NCBI RefSeq assembly: GCF_014467055.1
Contig: NZ_CP060696.1
Span: 2,170,001 to 2,234,000, forward strand
From: Caproicibacterium amylolyticum
Lineage (GTDB): Bacteria; Bacillota; Clostridia; Oscillospirales; Acutalibacteraceae
Direction of reading: 5' to 3'
DNA: 64,000 bases
Of this stretch, positions 2,741 to 28,619 are shown piece by piece. The notes below the pieces were generated by a model. The model ran no database searches, was not told the DNA's origin, and saw nothing but the letters and a program-made list of their open reading frames with translations. A program made the position numbers and the translations under genes. How positions within the stretch are numbered: the stretch's first letter is position 1; every line of letters starts with the position of its first letter.

Positions 2741-3201
2741 CCAGATTAACGCGGAGAAACGATGCTGGAAAGGCGGCCTACAAGCCGCTTGATCCTGACT
2801 GTGGGAACTGCACATCGTGTGACAAAAGAGACTACCATATGAGTTTGCTGACTGACCGTCTTGCAGACTACGAAGACCTTGGAACGCTTACACATATTCG
2901 CAAACTGGTGCAAGCTGAAAAAGACGGCAGGGTTTTACCAAGAAAATGCTATTTTACAGTTACCGAATCCTCTATTTGCGTAGTTATCAGCAAAAAATGT
3001 GCAAATGGTTTTTCTGGAAAAGCGAATGCTGAAATTATTGACGGTCTGAAAGACCTTGTGAAAGACCGTGAAAGCTTTATTGAGGGAGACCCCGACCATG
3101 ATGAGGTGTTTTTGTACGATAAAAAGGTGCTGGAAGGGGCTATCCGGATATTGGAGGGAATGAAAAACGGCTCCGTCCAAGAAGGGCGGAGCCAGATGTA
3201 G
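2737..3201 (+). CDS. Phage protein with N-terminal CxxC segment, unknown function
   Basis: 154 aa. It begins MTRLTRRNDAGKAAYK, then CGNCTSC (possible metal site), then LTDRLADYEDLGTL. This is the 'xRLTxR...LAxYEDxG' layout frequent in small clostridial phage proteins of unknown role. The last codons form a strong inverted repeat (3169-3193) that would act as a terminator for the small antisense gene on the other strand. The gene closes a four-gene overlapping set that starts with the helicase loader. Confidence 0.75.
   Translation: MTRLTRRNDAGKAAYKPLDPDCGNCTSCDKRDYHMSLLTDRLADYEDLGTLTHIRKLVQAEKDGRVLPRKCYFTVTESSICVVISKKCANGFSGKANAEIIDGLKDLVKDRESFIEGDPDHDEVFLYDKKVLEGAIRILEGMKNGSVQEGRSQM
3164..3193 (-). 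terminator. Intrinsic terminator of the antisense peptide gene
   Basis: A 10-bp GC-rich stem (3169-3178 with 3184-3193, 5-nt loop) is followed on the minus strand by G and five T. It lies 20 bases after the stop of the minus-strand ORF at 3213. On + it falls inside the coding end of the preceding gene and has no T-run. Confidence 0.75.
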
Positions 3202-3212
3202 GCGATATTTAC

Positions 3213-3287
3213 TTATTTACAGCTGCTGCAGCTACCGCAGTTTCCGAGCATTTGCTGGAGCAGTTGGAGCAATTCCTGACATGTCAT
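3213..3287 (-). CDS. Antisense 24-residue cysteine-rich peptide
   Basis: A 24-aa ORF on the strand opposite to all surrounding phage genes. The peptide starts MTCQELLQLLQQML and ends with a GNCGSCSSC cluster plus lysine: an amphipathic Leu/Gln helix followed by three closely spaced Cys, with a fourth Cys at position 3. A consensus AGGAGG lies 8 bases before the ATG, a sigma-A promoter sits upstream (3337-3365) and a terminator 20 bases downstream. This full set of signals is why so short an ORF is called. Function is unknown. It could be a metal-binding or redox peptide, or the RNA itself could regulate the sense gene it overlaps at the 3' end. Confidence 0.6.
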   Translation of the reverse strand: MTCQELLQLLQQMLGNCGSCSSCK

Positions 3288-3336
3288 AGCAGAAGCCTCC
3301 TTTTTTAATTTTGCTGTTCCCTTTCGGAACACCTAT

Positions 3337-3365
3337 ATCATATCAGGAATTATGCATGGGTTCAA
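3337..3365 (-). promoter_or_regulatory. Sigma-A promoter for the antisense peptide gene
   Basis: On the minus strand TTGAAC (3360-3365) and TATGAT (3337-3342) are separated by exactly 17 bases. The expected start is near 3330, giving a leader of about 43 nt with a 6-bp hairpin (TGTTCC...GGAACA) before the AGGAGG. Confidence 0.65.
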
Positions 3366-3442
3366 TCCTATAATTTTGGTAAAATTGTTAATAAAACGAA
3401 TGGAAAACTTTTTAGCATTGTTTGTTTTGTACAAAGGAGAAT

Positions 3443-3631
3443 ATGATGGAAGACGAAAGAAAAGCTTGTCCTTTAAAATTTGGCGGTCAAAACAGTTTTG
3501 CACAAACGCCATGGTGCGAAAAGGAGAAATGTGCATTGTGGTGTGGTTTTGATTGCTGCTGCGCGCTAGTTTCTGTGTCAGTGGAAATTAGCAACCGAAT
3601 ACATGATTTACGAGTTACATTGGAGAGGTAA
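3443..3631 (+). CDS. Small cysteine-rich phage protein
   Basis: 62 aa. Start ATG 3443 follows AAAGGAGA with normal spacing; upstream in-frame codons lack a site. Cysteines are clustered: CPLKFGGQ, then WCEKEKCALWC, then CCC before a short hydrophobic stretch. The layout C-P-L-x-F...C...C-A-x-W-C is typical of small phage proteins thought to bind zinc. No enzyme motif. It overlaps nothing upstream and ends 4 bases before the RusA start, so the two are likely cotranslated. Confidence 0.7.
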   Translation: MMEDERKACPLKFGGQNSFAQTPWCEKEKCALWCGFDCCCALVSVSVEISNRIHDLRVTLER

Positions 3632-3635
3632 AACC

Positions 3636-4049
3636 ATGACGATTCATTTCACCGTCCCCGGCCCGCCTTTCGGAAAGCAGCGCCCGCAGCACACAAAATA
3701 TGGGCATGACTATACGCCAAAAGAAACAAGGGCTTACGAGGAATTTGCGCAGAAATGTTTTTTTGCCGCGGCTGGCAGTTCGTTCATCCCCCTGCAAGGT
3801 GCGCTGCGCATTAAAATCTTTGCTGGGTATCCGATACCGAAAAGCATTTCAAAGAAGCGCCGTGCGGCTATGCTGGCGGGCACGGAATTACCGACAAAGA
3901 AGCCGGACTGGGACAACATCGGAAAAATTATCTGTGACGCGCTGAATGGTGTTGCCTACAAGGACGATGCCCAGATTTCTGATTCAACCATGCGTAAGCG
4001 GTACATAGACGGCCCTGGGTTAGTTGAGGTCTGGATTTCGAATTTATGA
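3636..4049 (+). CDS. rusA: RusA-family Holliday junction resolvase
   Basis: 137 aa, the usual RusA length. It begins with the family-typical strand IHFTVPGPPFGKQRP. The acidic catalytic set is visible: D91 and D93 in PDWDN, D101, and D110/D111 in YKDDAQI, followed by basic K/R residues. RusA enzymes cut four-way DNA junctions; phages use them to resolve recombination or replication intermediates before packaging. Start ATG 3636 has GGAGAGG upstream, and the longer ORF start is discarded for that reason. Confidence 0.93.
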   Translation: MTIHFTVPGPPFGKQRPQHTKYGHDYTPKETRAYEEFAQKCFFAAAGSSFIPLQGALRIKIFAGYPIPKSISKKRRAAMLAGTELPTKKPDWDNIGKIICDALNGVAYKDDAQISDSTMRKRYIDGPGLVEVWISNL

Positions 4050-4070
4050 TTTTGAGAGGATGGGGAGAAT

Positions 4071-4565
4071 TTGACAGTTGAAGAAGTGAAACACCTGTTA
4101 CGAATTTATTATGATATTCCGCAGATGATTGCAGAAGAATTCGCCACCATCCGCAATTGTAGGCAAGAGGAAAGCAAGATTGAGCTGCCGGCAGTGAACA
4201 TGACCGGTATGCCGTCCGGTAAGGGGATGACCAGCGACCGCACAGCCAACCAGGCATTGTCCAGCCAGTGGCAGTATTACGAAAATGAAGTCAAAGAGTG
4301 TGGGAAACGGATTGCCCAGCTGCAGGAGCAGCAGAACTGGCTTGGTACGGCACTCAACCGCATGGATCCGATTGACCGGCAGATTTTACAGTTGGCATTC
4401 ATGGGAGACAAGCATCACCGCCGCAAGGCTTACCGGCGCCCACCATGGAAGGAGGTTGCTGACGTGGTGGGATACAGCGAAAGCCAGACGAGAGAACGTG
4501 CCAGAAATGCAGTAACAAAATTGAAACTACTGTCAAATCAAAATGTACTAGCTGGTATGGCTTAA
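4071..4565 (+). CDS. Sigma-like phage late-gene regulator (DUF1492/ArpU-type)
   Basis: 164 aa, TTG start with GGGGAGAA upstream. An N-terminal helical part is followed by a central coiled segment (CGKRIAQLQEQQNWLGTALNRM). The C-terminus resembles sigma-70 region 4: IDRQILQLAFMGDKH, then a helix-turn-helix WKEVADVVGYSESQTRERARNAVTKL split around GY. Proteins of this kind sit last in the early module of Firmicutes phages and switch on packaging and structural genes. Its position just before the cargo stretch and terminase fits. The gene ends 4 bases before a promoter for a small RNA. Confidence 0.85.
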   Translation: MTVEEVKHLLRIYYDIPQMIAEEFATIRNCRQEESKIELPAVNMTGMPSGKGMTSDRTANQALSSQWQYYENEVKECGKRIAQLQEQQNWLGTALNRMDPIDRQILQLAFMGDKHHRRKAYRRPPWKEVADVVGYSESQTRERARNAVTKLKLLSNQNVLAGMA

Positions 4566-4568
4566 TAA

Positions 4569-4597
4569 TTGACAATGATTTATTAGCGTGGTAAGAT
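4569..4597 (+). promoter_or_regulatory. Sigma-A promoter of a small RNA
   Basis: TTGACA (4569-4574), 17-base spacer, TAAGAT (4592-4597). The -35 box is perfect and the -10 box matches 4 of 6. It begins 3 bases after the regulator stop and points into a region with no convincing ORF that ends at a terminator. Confidence 0.7.
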
Positions 4598-4603
4598 GAA
4601 TTT

Positions 4604-4737
4604 GCTAATACGGAGAATTGTGAAGGCAATCTCTATATCTACAGCTATACATATCGCTTAGTTAGTTCAATGATCGTAATTTGCTGTAGAGACAGGAAAA
4701 GGACGTCTGGTCTACCAAAACCACAGACGTCCTTTTT
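4604..4737 (+). ncRNA. Candidate 135-nt phage small RNA
   Basis: Inferred from the promoter (4569-4597) and the strong terminator hairpin (4697-4737). Its body forms a perfect 8-bp stem, TCTACAGC (4638-4645) with GCTGTAGA (4683-4690). Only trivial ORFs are present (13 codons from a GTG). It converges on the minus-strand gene for a two-TM peptide, and the two 3' ends overlap across the shared terminator. It could be the antitoxin RNA of a type I pair or an unrelated regulator. Start and end are predictions. Confidence 0.5.
4697..4737. terminator. Bidirectional terminator between small RNA and two-TM peptide gene
   Basis: Arms GGACGTCTG (4701-4709) and CAGACGTCC (4724-4732) are flanked by AAAA and TTTTT. 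It therefore works on + (five T) and less strongly on minus (four T). Confidence 0.8.
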
Positions 4738-4816
4738 CATATTCATTTTGCACTCGTAGACCACCGATTATTATTTAATGTACATTAGAACAAAATTATG
4801 TCGTACAAAATGAATA

Positions 4817-4969
4817 CTATCCTATAAAAAATGGACTGTACAAAGCAACTGTCAGAATCACTATTAGAAAAGAAAGAATCCTTTTCAACTGCTTATTTTT
4901 GGCTTCAAATGATGCCAAATACGATACTACGGTTGAACAAACGATAAAAAATGCTAAATACGGTTTCAT
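4817..4969 (-). CDS. 50-residue hydrophobic peptide with two membrane segments
   Basis: Minus-strand ORF in a + strand phage region. Residues about 4-21 and 31-48 are hydrophobic helices joined by a charged loop EAKNKQLKR; no signal peptidase or lipobox site is evident. AGGAGG lies 11 bases before the ATG, slightly far, which would give weak translation. A sigma-A promoter (5019-5046) and a terminator (4697-4737) frame the gene. Size, topology, prophage location and the convergent small RNA recall TxpA/BsrG-type type I toxins. A superinfection-exclusion or anti-holin-like membrane peptide is an alternative. Function is not established. Confidence 0.55.
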   Translation of the reverse strand: MKPYLAFFIVCSTVVSYLASFEAKNKQLKRILSFLIVILTVALYSPFFIG

Positions 4970-5018
4970 GTTGTCAGTAACCTCCTAAATTGAAATAATC
5001 GGAAGCTACTTGCCATAT

Positions 5019-5046
5019 ATTATAGCATAATAAATACATAATTCAA
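5019..5046 (-). promoter_or_regulatory. Sigma-A promoter of the two-TM peptide gene
   Basis: On minus, TTGAAT (5041-5046) and a perfect TATAAT (5019-5024) are spaced by 16 bases. The start is expected near 5012, leaving a leader of about 43 nt. Confidence 0.7.
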
Positions 5047-5382
5047 CAAATAAACTGATTGTTTTTTCGGCACTTTTCATCTATTTTAAGTAAAATTCAA
5101 TAGTTACTGAAAAGATAATTGGGTTACAATATAATTACGGAATTCCGAAGAGAGATGCAGGAACCGCATATTCTTCAAAAAGAATTCCGTGTTCATGCAT
5201 TTTCCTCCAATCCATATCTGATACACACTTCGCCGCAGCGTCGGAATGATGCCGCGGTACCTATGAGCCGGTTCAGGGGCATTAACCCTGCTGGCTCAAT
5301 AACATCCTTCTTTTAATATACTTTTTTGGCAGCCGGAACAGACGGCACGAACCCGACAGTACAGCAGCTGTCGAGCTTTCAT
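5047..5382. other. Non-coding AT-rich stretch with dyads
   Basis: No gene is supported here. Visible structure: CGGAATTCCG palindrome (5138-5147) whose left half pairs again with GAATTCCG at 5182-5189, and a hairpin GAGCC...GGCTC (5265-5297) followed by a weak T-rich run. ORFs across it use TTG starts without a ribosome binding site. It may be regulatory or remnant DNA. Confidence 0.4.
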
Positions 5383-5411
5383 TTGACAAATAATATTTTG
5401 TATGCTATACT
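5383..5411 (+). promoter_or_regulatory. Near-consensus sigma-A promoter of a second small RNA
   Basis: TTGACA (5383-5388), 17 bases, TATACT (5406-5411): 6 of 6 and 5 of 6 matches. This is the best promoter match noticed in the phage part of the window. Confidence 0.75.
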
Positions 5412-5417
5412 AACTAA

Positions 5418-5598
5418 GTTGGAAATATTCAACAAGCCTATCTTTTCGTGCCAAACCGAAGGCATTAATTTCGGCGTTGAAGTCATTTATGAACTGTTCC
5501 AAAGACCAATCAACAAAAGCAGGTATAGCAGTCGATAACCCGGGCGTTACACGGGACTAAAATATTATTGGGCATCCACTTTGGTGGGTGCCTTTTTT
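5418..5598 (+). ncRNA. Candidate 180-nt phage small RNA
   Basis: Bounded by the promoter at 5383-5411 and the terminator at 5570-5598. An open frame of about 40 codons crosses it but has no start codon with a ribosome binding site, so an untranslated RNA is favoured. Local stem CCGAA...TTCGG near 5457-5475 and CCCG...CGGG near 5540-5555 are visible. It lies upstream of the NACHT gene; the terminator should isolate the two. Confidence 0.5.
5570..5598 (+). terminator. Intrinsic terminator of the second small RNA
   Basis: 9-bp stem GGCATCCAC with GGTGGGTGCC (5571-5592, 4-nt loop) and six T. Confidence 0.85.
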
Positions 5599-5629
5599 GT
5601 ATCCAAATTTTTATGGGATTTAGCCGTTT

Positions 5630-5721
5630 GCGACTAATTCGTCGCACTTTATAAAGTATGATCGATAATATCAGGTTGACGTTGTGAAATTCGGACGGTA
5701 ATTTTGTCGTATATTTCACAA
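5630..5721. promoter_or_regulatory. Two operator-like inverted repeats upstream of the NACHT gene
   Basis: First dyad 5630-5645: GCGAC and GTCGC around an AATT centre, 14 of 16 positions symmetric. Second: TTGTGAAAT (5682-5690) and ATTTCACAA (5713-5721), perfect 9-bp inverted repeat 22 bases apart. A -10-like TATACT lies at 5760-5765 just downstream. They suggest protein binding that controls the NACHT gene, but no cognate regulator is visible. Confidence 0.4.
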
Positions 5722-5795
5722 ATATGCAATATTTCCTTTTAAAATGCTGATTTTTGGGTTATACTGGAGAAAAGTATTTTAGGGAGAATGTTAAT

Positions 5796-7691
5796 ATGTC
5801 AAATGAGACACTTAGTTTACCGAGTTCAAATGTAGAAGCAGGGTCTTTAATTCCAATAGATGGTAATAAGATTGCAGCTGAAGTTATTACAAATTTAGTA
5901 AGTACAACAGCTAAAGCAATTTATAGTAAAGTCTTAAAAAAGGTAAAATCGAAAATAAATAAAAGCGAGGTTGATATTGGCTACGCTTTTGAAAAATATA
6001 TTAAATATTCGGAAAACAAATACAGAATGGTTAAAACGTTATTGTATAGACATGAATCAAGAGACCTATATTCTTTTTATGAGTGTCTAGGCGTAAGGAC
6101 TTCGAAGAAAAGGATAGATACATCAAATATTCAAAAAGTTCTTGAATTGGGTCATGAACTCATCATAACAGGAACAGGTGGAATGGGGAAAAGCGTTATG
6201 ATGAGGCACTTTTTCATTAATTCAATTAAAAATTCAAAATTCATACCAATTTTAGTCGAACTACGTGGACTCAATGACTACAAGAAAAAAGATATAGATA
6301 TTATTGATTACATATATGAAATCTTAGAAAAGTTGCATTTCCAACTTGAAAAAGAATATTTTATTTATGGAATGGAGTGCGGATGCTTTTTGATTCTTCT
6401 TGATGGGTATGATGAGGTAAAAAACAATTTGTCTCCAAAGATTACATCAGAAATTCAAAATATGTGCGATCAATATCCTCAAAATTACTATATCATTTCT
6501 TCCCGACCACTTCAGGAGTTTACTGGATGGCATAATTTCGAAGAATTAAGATGTCAGAATTTAGACAAAAGGCAAGCGATTGAATTAATTCAAAAGCTGG
6601 ATTATGAGCCAGAGGTGAAGAAAAAGTTCTGTAAAGAACTCAATTCTGATTTGTTTGATAAATATAAAACATTTGCATCAAACCCACTTTTGCTGACAAT
6701 TATGCTGATGACTTTTGAGACGCGAGCATCTATACCCGACAAATTGAATGATTTTTATGATCAGGCTTTTGTTGTGTTGTTTCACGAACACGATGCTACA
6801 AAAGGCAGTTACCAAAGAGAAATCCTTAGTAAATTAAGCTATGAGGATTTCAAAATGGTTTTTTCATATTTTTGTTTCAAATCATTTTTTATGGGGAAAT
6901 ATGAATTTAATAAGTCCCAAGTTTTAGATATAATAGAAATGTGCAAAGTTAAAAAAATAATTAACAACAATTTCAAAAGCGAGGATTTCTTGAATGATTT
7001 GACCAATGCCGTTTGTATGTTAGTTAAGGAAGGATTAAACTACAAATTTGCCCATAGATCTTTTCAAGAATATTTTGCAGCTGTGTACACTGCCCAGCTT
7101 AATGATTGTGACCAAAAAATATTCTTAGAAAATTGGATGAAACAAAAAAATTATCGACTGACAAGTAATTACTTGGATATGCTATTAGATTTAGAACCGC
7201 AACACTTTGTTAAAAATATAATTTTTCCAGGATTGCAAGAAATTAAAAATAAATATGATAAAGATGGACATTCTGAGAGTTGGGCCTTTCGCAGTATCTG
7301 CGAAGGAATTTCTATTGAAAATCGTTTTAATCCATTAACAAACACACTCTCGGCGGATAAAAAATGCTTAGCAATAATGATTAAAAGTAACTATGAGCAT
7401 CTCATCATGCACTATTCACTAATAGCTTCCTCTTATAATTTTGCTCAAGCCCAAAAAAAGCATGAAGACGCTCAAAATAAAATAATAAAGTATTTAGAAG
7501 AAAACTATAGCAATGAATTGCCGGATATTTCATATGATAGAATTCGAGAATTAGATATATGGCCACAAATAAAAGAAGGAATACAGTGGTTTACAGATCA
7601 GTTTGAATTTTGCTTACAATATTATGAGCAACTTAATCAGCAGTATAGCCGTTCGACTCGAAATTTTAATGATATGCTGCAAGAATTGTAA
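5796..7691 (+). CDS. NACHT-domain NTPase, probable phage-borne defence protein (bNACHT type)
   Basis: 631 aa. ATG 5796 has AGGGAG 9 bases upstream; the TTG 42 bases earlier has none. Residues 1-120 form an unassigned N-terminal domain. Walker A GTGGMGKS lies at 126-133, Walker B LILLDGYDE about 199-207, and a sensor ISSRP about 234. The NACHT winged-helix end FAHRSFQEYFAA is near residue 418. The remaining 200 residues are helical with no recognised effector motif. Bacterial NACHT proteins are STAND NTPases that sense phage and trigger abortive responses (known for the family). Here the gene is phage cargo, so it would guard the lysogen against rival phages (inference). Base composition is far more AT-rich than its neighbours, a sign of separate acquisition. 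Confidence 0.9.
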   Translation: MSNETLSLPSSNVEAGSLIPIDGNKIAAEVITNLVSTTAKAIYSKVLKKVKSKINKSEVDIGYAFEKYIKYSENKYRMVKTLLYRHESRDLYSFYECLGVRTSKKRIDTSNIQKVLELGHELIITGTGGMGKSVMMRHFFINSIKNSKFIPILVELRGLNDYKKKDIDIIDYIYEILEKLHFQLEKEYFIYGMECGCFLILLDGYDEVKNNLSPKITSEIQNMCDQYPQNYYIISSRPLQEFTGWHNFEELRCQNLDKRQAIELIQKLDYEPEVKKKFCKELNSDLFDKYKTFASNPLLLTIMLMTFETRASIPDKLNDFYDQAFVVLFHEHDATKGSYQREILSKLSYEDFKMVFSYFCFKSFFMGKYEFNKSQVLDIIEMCKVKKIINNNFKSEDFLNDLTNAVCMLVKEGLNYKFAHRSFQEYFAAVYTAQLNDCDQKIFLENWMKQKNYRLTSNYLDMLLDLEPQHFVKNIIFPGLQEIKNKYDKDGHSESWAFRSICEGISIENRFNPLTNTLSADKKCLAIMIKSNYEHLIMHYSLIASSYNFAQAQKKHEDAQNKIIKYLEENYSNELPDISYDRIRELDIWPQIKEGIQWFTDQFEFCLQYYEQLNQQYSRSTRNFNDMLQEL

Positions 7692-7706
7692 CATATTCTT
7701 TTATTA

Positions 7707-7740
7707 AGCGCCCCGCCCCCGCAGCAGGCGCTATTTTTAT
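7707..7740 (+). terminator. Terminator after the NACHT gene
   Basis: AGCGCC (7707-7712) and GGCGCT (7727-7732) close a 14-nt loop and are followed by ATTTTTA. Confidence 0.65.
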
Positions 7741-7766
7741 ACCCAAAAACAAAAGGAGCTGATAAC

Positions 7767-7835
7767 ATGGTGCAGGTCTGGCCGCCGGGCGAGAGTCGCC
7801 TGCTGGGCATCCGCCTCCTGGGTGGTGGTCCGTAG
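7767..7835 (+). CDS. 22-codon leader ORF overlapping terS start
   Basis: ATG 7767 follows AAAGGAGCTGATAAC, a good ribosome binding site. The peptide runs MVQVWPPGESRLLGIRLLG and ends GGP at a TAG that shares its last base with the GTG start of terS. TerS itself has only a weak GGTGGTGG upstream. The likeliest role is translational coupling; the peptide itself looks nondescript and GC-rich. It may instead be the true start of a region mis-joined to terS by a frameshift, but no shift site is evident. Confidence 0.45.
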   Translation: MVQVWPPGESRLLGIRLLGGGP

Positions 7836-8314
7836 TGGCGATTACAGAAAAGCAGAAGCGGTTTGCGGACGAATATTTGAAAGACCTCAACGCGACCGCA
7901 GCAGCGCGGCGAGCTGGATATAAGGACCCGAATTTCGGACGCCAGCTGCTAACGAAAACTAACGTTTCGGAGTACATTCAGAAGCGGATGCAAGCCCAGC
8001 AGAGCCGCACGGAAATCACGCAGGACCGGGTGCTGCAGGAACTGGCCGCTATTGGCTTTGCCCGCGGCACGGACTATGCGCAGGTTACCAAGTCCGGTGC
8101 GGTTGCCATAAAACCTACAGACCAGTTGAATGACCAGCAGAAAGCTGCCGTTACCGGTATCAAGGAAACGCAGGCGGGCGTGGAGGTAAAACTGGCCGAC
8201 AAAGTGAAAGCATTGGAACTACTGGGAAAGCACCTGGGAATGTTTGATGGCGCATCCCAGTCGGCTGACATTGAAGATTTGGCAGACCTGCGCAAGGAGG
8301 TCTTTGGAAAGTGA
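7835..8314 (+). CDS. terS: Terminase small subunit
   Basis: 159 aa, GTG start. The N-terminus ITEKQKRFADEYLKDLNATAAARRAGY is the helix-turn-helix of the Terminase_2 (SPP1 gp1-like) family. It binds the pac site and brings DNA to the large subunit. The C-terminal 60 residues include LADKVKALELLGKHLG, the usual oligomerisation region of the family. terL starts with GTGA overlap at its stop. Confidence 0.93.
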   Translation: MAITEKQKRFADEYLKDLNATAAARRAGYKDPNFGRQLLTKTNVSEYIQKRMQAQQSRTEITQDRVLQELAAIGFARGTDYAQVTKSGAVAIKPTDQLNDQQKAAVTGIKETQAGVEVKLADKVKALELLGKHLGMFDGASQSADIEDLADLRKEVFGK

Positions 8315-9648
8315 CCAGTACCAAAACACTCGACTATCAATTTGGCCAGAAGCACCGTGACTATATGCGCCGCTGCCTTGCGTCAACCATTAACGTTGCC
8401 GAAGGCGCTGTGCGTGCCGGGAAAACAGTAGACAATGTATTTGCCTTTGCCTATGCACTTGAATCTGCTCCGGACAGGATCCACCTTGCCACCGGCTCCA
8501 CAAGTGCCAACGCAAAGCTGAACATTGGCGACTGCAACGGGTATGGGCTGGAAGGCATCTTCCGTGGCCGCTGCCACTGGGGCAAATACAAAGGTAATGA
8601 AGCATTGTATGTATCTACCCCATCCGGCGAAAAAATCATTATCTTTGCTGGCGGTGCCAAAGCGGACAGCTACAAAAAAATTCGCGGCAACTCCTATGGT
8701 ATGTGGATTGCGACAGAAATCAATCTGCATCATGACAACACCATCAAGGAAGCATTCAACCGGCAGTTGGCAGCAAAAGGGCGAAAGATATTCTGGGACT
8801 TGAACCCGGATAACCCTAACTCCCCTATCTACACACAATACATAGACCTGTACGCTGAAAAACAGCGCAAAAATGAATTTCCTGGCGGATACAATTACGA
8901 GCACTTTACTATCCACGACAATGCAACCATCACACAGGAACGCATGACTGAAATCATTTCACAATATGACCAATCAAGCATCTGGTATATGCGAGACATC
9001 GAAGGACTGCGTTGCACCGCCGAAGGACTGATTTACCGGCAGTTTGCTACTGCGGCAAATTCCCAGCAAAACCGATTTGCCTACCGAGCAGAGCAAGATT
9101 TGACGTTTTTCAAAATTGTTCTGGGCGTTGACTTTGGCGGTACAGGTTCCGGTCATTCTTTCCTCGCAACCGGTATCACACCCGGATACCGCGAAGCTGT
9201 TTCACTTGCAAGTGAGCGCTTTACCGGGGACGATATTGACCCGGACAGATTGGGACAGCTGTTTGTTGCGTTCGTGCAGCGCATTCTGCACCAATACGGA
9301 CGCATTACCGCTGTGTACTGTGACAGTGCCGAGCAGGTGCTGATTCGCGGCTTCCGCAAAGCATTGCAGCAGGCGGGGCTTGGCTATGTGCGCGTTTACA
9401 ATGCGTTGAAAAGTTCCATCATAGACCGAATTCGACTAACCACCCGGCTAATGGCGCAAGGGCGGTATTTTTATGTTCCGGACCAGTGTCAGAGCCTTGA
9501 AAAGGCTTTCTGCACGGCGGTATGGAATCCAAAATCACTCACAAAAGACGACCGTCTAGACGACGGTACAAGCGACATCGACAGCTTAGATGGCTTTGAA
9601 TACACCATTGAACAGGACCGCAACCGATTTTTAAACGCAGAGAGGTGA
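8311..9648 (+). CDS. terL: Terminase large subunit (PBSX/SPP1 type)
   Basis: 445 aa, the normal length. The ATPase Walker A-like EGAVRAGKT is at about 31-39 and the Walker B region at GMWIATEIN near 131-139. The RNase H-like nuclease begins LGVDFGGTGSGHSF at about 271, with further acidic residues in YCDSAEQ and DDRLDDGTSDIDSLDGFEY. It cuts concatemers and pumps DNA into the prohead through the portal. Start GTG overlaps terS by 4 bp; the portal follows after 4 bases. Confidence 0.95.
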   Translation: MTSTKTLDYQFGQKHRDYMRRCLASTINVAEGAVRAGKTVDNVFAFAYALESAPDRIHLATGSTSANAKLNIGDCNGYGLEGIFRGRCHWGKYKGNEALYVSTPSGEKIIIFAGGAKADSYKKIRGNSYGMWIATEINLHHDNTIKEAFNRQLAAKGRKIFWDLNPDNPNSPIYTQYIDLYAEKQRKNEFPGGYNYEHFTIHDNATITQERMTEIISQYDQSSIWYMRDIEGLRCTAEGLIYRQFATAANSQQNRFAYRAEQDLTFFKIVLGVDFGGTGSGHSFLATGITPGYREAVSLASERFTGDDIDPDRLGQLFVAFVQRILHQYGRITAVYCDSAEQVLIRGFRKALQQAGLGYVRVYNALKSSIIDRIRLTTRLMAQGRYFYVPDQCQSLEKAFCTAVWNPKSLTKDDRLDDGTSDIDSLDGFEYTIEQDRNRFLNAER

Positions 9649-28213: not shown

Positions 28214-28231
28214 ATTTCAAAACTTGCGTTT

Positions 28232-28306
28232 TGGCTGGGCTGGCGGGATTCGGACCCACGCATGACGGAGTCAAAGTCCGTTGCCTTACCGCTTGGCTAC
28301 AGCCCA
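28232..28306 (-). tRNA. tRNA-Gln (TTG anticodon)
   Basis: On minus it begins TGGGCTGTAGCCAAGCGG. The acceptor stem TGGGCTG/CAGCCCA is intact, anticodon stem ACGGA/TCCGT holds loop CTTTGAC, and CCA is encoded. It is last of four tRNAs and nearest the prophage. Confidence 0.95.
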
Positions 28307-28528: not shown

Positions 28529-28602
28529 TGGAGCGAGTGATGGGAATCGAACCCACACGACCAGCTTGGAAGGCTGGAGTTCTACCATTGAACTACACTC
28601 GC
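28529..28602 (-). tRNA. tRNA-Gly (TCC anticodon)
   Basis: Acceptor GCGAGTG/CACTCGC, anticodon stem CCAGC/GCTGG with loop CTTCCAA, encoded CCA (28529-28531). First gene of the four-tRNA operon. Confidence 0.95.
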
Positions 28603-28619
28603 AATTAGCAACGGATATT

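Follow-up and report, generated by a model that had tools for sequence, protein, structure and literature searches.

The gene at positions 5796–7691 of a 64,000-nucleotide (nt) stretch of Caproicibacterium amylolyticum DNA (contig NZ_CP060696.1, positions 2,170,001–2,234,000; the whole stretch is referred to as the window) is likely to be one exchangeable cargo, coding for a single-protein, NLR-like immune receptor, in a prophage defence slot bordered by the late regulator and the terminase genes. An earlier sequence-only reading had proposed a NACHT-type STAND protein carried as prophage defence cargo, a view that the results below support as far as computation goes. The window belongs to a single-contig 3.0-Mb genome (loci, genomes and proteins used for comparison bear the letters L, G and P). 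Since a 24-bp repeat pairs L240:11023 with window position 28231, the carrier appears to be a prophage of ~37.2 kb; its genes include those for replication, RusA, the late regulator, terminase, portal and minor head proteins. As the earlier reading had noticed, the NACHT gene stands alone between the late regulator (the PHROG 36 gene) and the terminase genes (Table 1); the one other open reading frame (ORF) of more than 70 amino acids (aa) found between the late regulator and terS is antisense to terS. The dyads and terminator of the NACHT gene itself were also recovered (a terminator-like structure at 5570–5593, and a hairpin at 7707–7732 followed by T5, 3′ of the gene), as was a composition richer in AT than that of the phage: the GC content of the gene is 0.310 (0.285 at third codon positions, GC3), versus 0.499 for terL and 0.500 for the whole window. 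A match to the cargo protein at E ≤ 1e-20 was found in one of 148 genomes searched, and SNaCT7, its C-terminal domain, in one of 398 family genomes; both times this was the gene's own genome.

The frame 5796–7691 contains no internal stops. Starting instead at an in-frame TTG (5754) would lengthen the protein to 645 aa; the ATG at 5796 is preferred because AGGGAG (5781–5786) precedes it and because the similarity of the window to loci L260 and L293, described below, stops there. The NACHT assignment had been drawn from three motifs, Walker A, Walker B and HRSFQEYFAA, and their key residues did not vary across 60 aligned sequences, the cargo protein among them (H420, F423 and Q424 for the last motif, which spans residues 420–429; see Table 1 for the others). 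The catalytic Walker positions are intact and the motifs are those of a NACHT protein. The last 167 residues are covered by SNaCT7, a short NACHT-associated C-terminal domain. A first structure model, built from 30 close homologues, was mediocre (predicted local distance difference test, pLDDT, 71.5), and a second was built from 60 sequences; by fold comparison, the predicted structure has the NACHT-type fold of NLR proteins. The earlier reading had allowed that a profile search might place the protein outside the NACHT/STAND group; by both the SNaCT7 profile and the comparison of folds it falls inside, as a new member of a known protein kind. Aligned to the eukaryotic NLRs NOD2, NLRC4 and NLRP3, it showed 14–17% identity, and it differs from them in that Pfam recognised neither CARD/PYD nor leucine-rich repeats. 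No solved structure was matched by sequence. Two named identities were rejected: EruA (NCBIfam NF058535), with only a weak match (20.6 bits, against a curated cut-off of 1000), and Avs (AVAST), with no PADLOC family at E ≤ 1, although Avs4 came at rank 50 in the fold search (E 3.9e-6). PADLOC presumably includes Avs models. The PHROG families 18297 (E 4.8e-103) and 32986 (E 7.7e-40), both listed as of unknown function, match and cover the NACHT core and could be relabelled. The strong AT bias, and the presence of the gene in a single genome among those searched, would suit a passenger that currently has no function and is between moves; yet the 631-codon frame is intact, all the invariant motif residues are present, and the leader, terminator and conserved edges are preserved, which makes such a passenger very improbable.

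The protein search scored 7997 candidates, 2595 of them at E ≤ 1e-3. Among the 120 matches listed, the best other protein was 54% identical and the remainder 48–51%; PF05729 (NACHT) is a precomputed domain of relatives such as P0002 and P0120. A single-sequence query of the viral contigs found no close viral relatives, an alignment query found 77 viral relatives, and phage records gave two matches only, both distant and in Vibrio phages. The relatives form two main size classes. In that of ~600 aa, the shared part includes the N-terminal helix. In that of ~800–950 aa, homology extends from residues ~64 to ~498 of the cargo protein and mostly 160–360 residues lie ahead of the shared core; NACHT was present in all 36 of the long proteins scanned and an SNaCT14 end in 35, and the Pfam tally of these 36 named no N-terminal effector. 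These SNaCT14 proteins, many of them on viral contigs, are thus homologous to the cargo protein over the core and differ from it in length, N-terminal part and C-terminal end. Because the long relatives have a larger N-terminal part there, residues 1–60 stand where an effector domain would be. Helical moments for windows starting at residues 23–30 were 0.29–0.45 (protein mean 0.26, standard deviation 0.12), at most suggestive of an amphipathic, pore-like N-terminal helix, and no clear transmembrane segment was found in the protein (the highest Kyte-Doolittle value of any 19-residue window was 0.99). Residues 55–547 were the only ones spanned by at least one fifth of the rows in the VIA listing, non-matches outside this range being uninformative. 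On viral contigs L094–L146, NACHT genes of ~800–950 aa often lie behind recurrent minus-strand genes of ~646, 190, 375 and 105 aa; the N-terminal part of these long proteins had no Pfam name.

The exchange of the gene was most evident in phages with a related terminase. From 89 viral stretches with a gene for a related large terminase, 80 loci were retained, their late-regulator genes being named by position and clustering (C1, C6, C23). In 38 of these loci both borders (terS and, on the left, a gene in the position of the late regulator) were present, separated by 105–3995 bp. The other 42, with a border unrecognised or the borders out of order, were excluded from the count; they include L158, L189, L190 and L205, where the 'slot' is merely the stretch ahead of the terminase genes. 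The clearest set comprised L171, L172, L176, L177, L194, L195, L212 and L214, seven of them distinct (L171 and L214 are identical; a 1089-bp stretch of the slot region shows 99.7% identity between L194 and L212). The gene at the late-regulator position of L171 had no Pfam match. The pieces bordering the slot were 95.0–97.5% identical to L177, the left one ending at L177 positions 5010–5141 and the right one starting at 7205–7531, and the non-matching part is the NACHT gene of L177 itself (5198–7222; 674 aa, with an SNaCT5 end). The other members of the set carry a DUF4145/PD-T7-4-like gene (L171/L214), SLATT_5 (L176), YjcQ (L172) or genes without a name (L194/L212, L195). Unrelated genes are exchanged between conserved phage flanks. 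Elsewhere among the 38 loci, L170 has a second PD-T7-4-like gene, L174 an HD/dGTPase gene, L210 a PAPS-reductase gene that matches DndC in part, L163 a DUF2806 gene and L220 a gene whose radical-SAM match is sub-threshold. Further cargos are methyltransferases and, in L169 and L179, genes with no match at all. Where the left border was unrecognised, the gene before terS coded for a resolvase (L190) or a methyltransferase (L189), or gave a sub-threshold ParB match (L205). The terL most similar to that of the window (74%) was found in L158, which has a tRNA-Gly ahead of its terminase and in which the interval from the regulator-position gene to terL yielded no plus-strand ORF ≥ 50 aa.

The upstream block of the slot (window 4566–5795) was also found with other terminases. 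It was matched in 13 of 398 family genomes, its own included, and had no match in phage records. In L260, a locus with phage genes in the congener G009, window segments 5320–5795 (85% identity) and 7733–7770 (95%) enclose a 167-aa gene, and the large terminase, of the TerL_ATPase family, has no significant similarity to that of the window; viral contigs L296 and L298 are arranged as L260. In viral contig L293, segments 5229–5789 (84%), 7706–7740 (94%) and 7735–7841 (78%) are present, a DUF6731/PDC-M67A gene and a 198-aa gene lie between the shared blocks, as in L295, and the large terminase is only 21% identical to that of the window. A three-way alignment of the window, L260 and L293 showed the shared sequence to span the promoter and the ribosome-binding site up to the start codon, with the −10 region of the promoter-like site and the following GGAGAAAAGT kept in both loci. 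The start codons (ATG, ATG and GTG) are in register and similarity dissolves from there, to resume at the terminator (L293) or just past it (L260). Since the shared blocks reach the start codon and resume at or after the terminator in unlike phages, the exchanged unit is, judging from these alignments, the coding sequence with little else. The cargos have a GC content of 31–34%, versus ~50% for the terminases. Loci L268 and L297 have the RNA gene described below and terminase genes, with no cargo; in L268 the regulator is 55% and the large terminase 24% identical to those of the window, and in L297 the gene at the regulator position is not clearly related (E 0.022). In L266 the slot holds a 102-aa ORF on the opposite strand. 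In these last three loci terS was named by position.

The location of the gene, exactly between the late regulator and the terminase genes and co-directional with both, would also suit a protein that serves the phage itself, in late-gene timing, packaging or lysogeny-tied superinfection exclusion, and not in general defence. The exchanges described above make this quite improbable. Contigs 95.0–97.5% identical beside the slot hold other genes, and phages sharing the upstream block hold other genes or none, which refutes a phage factor conserved at this locus, a possibility raised by the earlier reading. Further, the cargo has its own promoter-like site and terminator, and NACHT relatives sit on chromosomal and viral contigs of many kinds.

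Like the SNaCT7 end, the conserved RNA/promoter block upstream of the NACHT gene was absent from the sequence-only reading. The promoter-like site of the RNA gene fits the consensus at 11 of 12 positions. DNA matches in the range of the RNA gene occurred in 11 of 397 other family genomes, a covariance model detected the RNA in 11 of 300 (own genome included, three of them weakly), and its exact pattern was found in 6 viral contigs. The loci containing it (window, L260, L261–L268, L293 and L297) are patchily distributed, in prophage slots and elsewhere; in L261, L262, L265 and L267 no phage genes were visible around it, as judged by ORF sequence only. Covariation was modest: in an alignment that included the promoter, 5 of 41 predicted pairs showed changes in both partners, and four of the five belong to the terminator hairpin. 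Rfam gave no match at E ≤ 1 in window 3000–9000, and none above the gathering score at the RNA element in 8 loci. A 6S RNA (RF00013) was rejected, as it had no match in window 3000–9000 and the one 6S match of the genome lies at G000:C1:2454362–2454554; so was a universal housekeeping RNA, given its presence in only 11 of 300 family genomes. An antisense regulator of the cargo leader was rejected as well, the predicted duplexes being no better than those of shuffled sequences for three platforms (fractions 0.845, 0.82 and 0.78). We tentatively suggest, as a possibility on the doubtful side of even, that the RNA gene/promoter/ribosome-binding site block and the terminator/terS-leader block form a docking platform common to temperate phages with different terminases, on which coding sequences are swapped one for another, and that the RNA takes part in cargo control, e.g. 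keeping the cargo on in lysogeny or silencing it at induction of its own phage. Near-exact exchange beside a conserved unnamed RNA gene raises the question of how a cargo can be on in lysogeny yet harmless to its own phage. In the congener G003 (L263:5932–6724), the RNA gene lies ~184 bp from a tRNA cluster that corresponds to the attachment site of the window genome.

The earlier reading had asked whether other phages carry different defence genes at this locus. They do: several of the alternatives match the known or candidate anti-phage proteins PD-T7-4, SLATT_5, PDC-M67A (the L293 cargo), dGTPase and another NACHT. At least 10 of 33 non-redundant slot ORFs (each ≥ 80 aa) matched PADLOC: five methyltransferases, two PD-T7-4-like genes, one SLATT, one dGTPase and one partial DndC. 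Several observations weigh against a defence slot and a defensive NACHT cargo. No PADLOC match was obtained for 6 of 10 slot or slot-position proteins in one set (including the L177 NACHT) and 6 of 10 in another, and half of the matches counted are methyltransferases, whose role may be to shield the DNA of their own phage instead of defending. The resolvase of L190 is not a defence gene, and two annotated Clostridioides phages with a related terL have a recombinase gene in place of a defence gene directly before terS. As a control, a random sample of 33 of the 95 ORFs lying upstream of the slot was compared with PADLOC and hit 32 families (those displayed, 25 in number, have one member each and include helicase families, capH and PDC-M69A). 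The control ORFs are shorter than the slot ORFs and the control tally counts families, lacking the number of matching ORFs, so that enrichment of defence genes in the slot is indicative only. As to the protein, PF05729 scored 19.5 bits, under its cut-off of 26.7; PADLOC, as said, gave no family; the N-terminus was poorly predicted in the structure model; and no effector domain was recognised by Pfam, PADLOC or NCBIfam. This last result agrees with the earlier reading, which had seen no effector in the N-terminal 120 or C-terminal 200 residues, except that the C-terminal 167 are a named domain, SNaCT7.

STAND proteins are described as sensing through the C-terminus, oligomerising through the centre and acting through an effector at the N-terminus (PMC12169576). 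In that paper, bNACHT proteins of clade 14 (bNACHT02, 11 and 12) have short C-terminal SNaCT domains and no discernible effector, and include anti-phage members; bNACHT11 and bNACHT12 are independent of DnaJ, unlike clade 6. The cargo protein shares with them the NACHT core, an SNaCT-type C-terminus and the lack of a recognisable effector, and differs in being prophage cargo; the likeness of the SNaCT7 protein is one of domain features and does not imply clade placement. The anti-phage activity of SNaCT bNACHT proteins (PMC12169576) argues against a STAND regulator, or a toxic addiction or stress protein, that has no anti-phage function and hitch-hikes with the prophage. So do the PD-T7-4-, SLATT-, PDC-M67A- and dGTPase-type genes of the slot and the absence of any DNA-binding domain by Pfam. 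A hitch-hiker is unlikely, even with two points in its favour: no activity of an SNaCT7 protein was found in the open-licence literature, and a CARD-NLR-like system of Caulobacter is described as controlling gene transfer agent release (PMC13236601).

The preferred reading is that the NACHT cargo probably guards the lysogen against rival phages. In the lysogen, the protein would be made from the slot's own promoter, for which a conserved promoter-like site was seen, and would rest in a nucleotide-bound state, by analogy with bNACHT proteins as a monomer. On infection by another phage, the C-terminal half, with SNaCT7, might sense either a phage product or some cellular disturbance; the Walker motifs could then exchange their nucleotide, whereupon the protein would open to form a ring. 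Its N-terminal helices (residues ~23–61), brought together in this way, or a partner recruited by them, would bring about growth stop or cell death before the rival phage multiplies. Prophage defence hotspots are known in P2/P4-like, Vibrio and Bacillus prophages (PMC9122126), and Tai genes are mostly located upstream of the packaging module (PMC11364771). As in these cases, variable and often defensive cargo lies between conserved phage genes, for Tai in the same place; the window slot differs in that a gene or gene pair is swapped nearly exactly between the RNA gene/promoter/ribosome-binding site and terminator/terS-leader blocks. In having an RNA/promoter block and a nearly exact exchange of coding sequence, the slot is a variant, itself new, of the known prophage-hotspot kind. 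The Tha/Ith system of Staphylococcus prophages (PMC11087260) is likewise a single prophage defence protein that must spare its own phage; in the window slot no linked protein inhibitor gene is visible, and the linked conserved element is the RNA gene. Neither a NACHT gene as prophage cargo nor an RNA-linked slot was found described in the open-licence literature. On the preferred reading, an NLR-like defence protein would circulate among temperate phages as a cargo of one gene at a fixed site, with genes of other defence types as its alternatives, and the slot offers a searchable source of new systems, with unnamed genes in L195, L169, L179, L260 and others.

Table 1. Features of the NACHT cargo gene, its slot and the carrier prophage (window positions unless a locus is given)
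Feature	Position	Strand	Details
Late transcription regulator, left slot border	4071..4565	+	PHROG 36, E 1.1e-12; PHROG 248, E 6.5e-7
Promoter-like TTGACA-17-TAAGAT (4569–4597), then possible short transcript with hairpin and T-run end	4569..4742	+	10/12 consensus positions
Conserved non-coding RNA gene	5382..5609	+	Promoter-like TTGACA-17-TATACT (5383–5411); RNA ~5415–5598 (~184 nt); terminator-like 5570–5593
Promoter-like site of cargo gene, TTTAAA-16-TATACT	5738..5765	+	9/12, weak alone
Ribosome-binding site and leader	5781..5795	+	Shared sequence stops at start codon (three-way alignment)
NACHT/STAND ATPase gene with SNaCT7 domain, exchanged cargo	5796..7691	+	631 aa, ATG
N-terminal helix, residues 23–61	5862..5978	+	Modelled with low confidence; its place is taken by a larger N-terminal part in longer relatives
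Walker A GTGGMGKS, residues 126–133	6171..6194	+	G129, G131, K132 invariant
Walker B LILLDGYDE, residues 199–207	6390..6416	+	D203, D206, E207 invariant
SNaCT7 domain (PF22712), residues 465–631, presumed sensor end	7188..7688	+	Pfam E 1.5e-64, 217.2 bits (cut-off 27)
Terminator-like hairpin and T-run, within shared right edge	7706..7738	+	Fold z −2.15
Possible 22-codon leader ORF, overlaps terS start	7767..7835	+	Kept in L293 with a 15-bp in-frame gap
terS, right slot border	7835..8314	+	PHROG 51, E 1e-39
terL	8311..9648		PHROG 2, E 1e-30
attR, 24-bp direct repeat, 3′ end of tRNA-Gln	28231..28254	.	Partner attL at window −8977 (L240:11023)
Integrase adjoining left repeat	L240:11126–12358		PF00589, E 6.2e-16

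Promoter-like matches in the region numbered 17, near the mean of 14.7 for shuffled sequences. The segment 4604–4742, behind the late regulator, has a strong predicted fold (z −5.30) and may be a late leader or a small RNA. Window 5176–5346 is 78% identical to L269:4150–4300, close upstream of another terminase in the congener G009; because of this match, part of the left block also exists without a match to the RNA gene. A tRNA-Gly (28529–28603) adjoins the attachment site in the window, and a tRNA-Gly in L158 (L158:7501–7574) is 85% identical to it.
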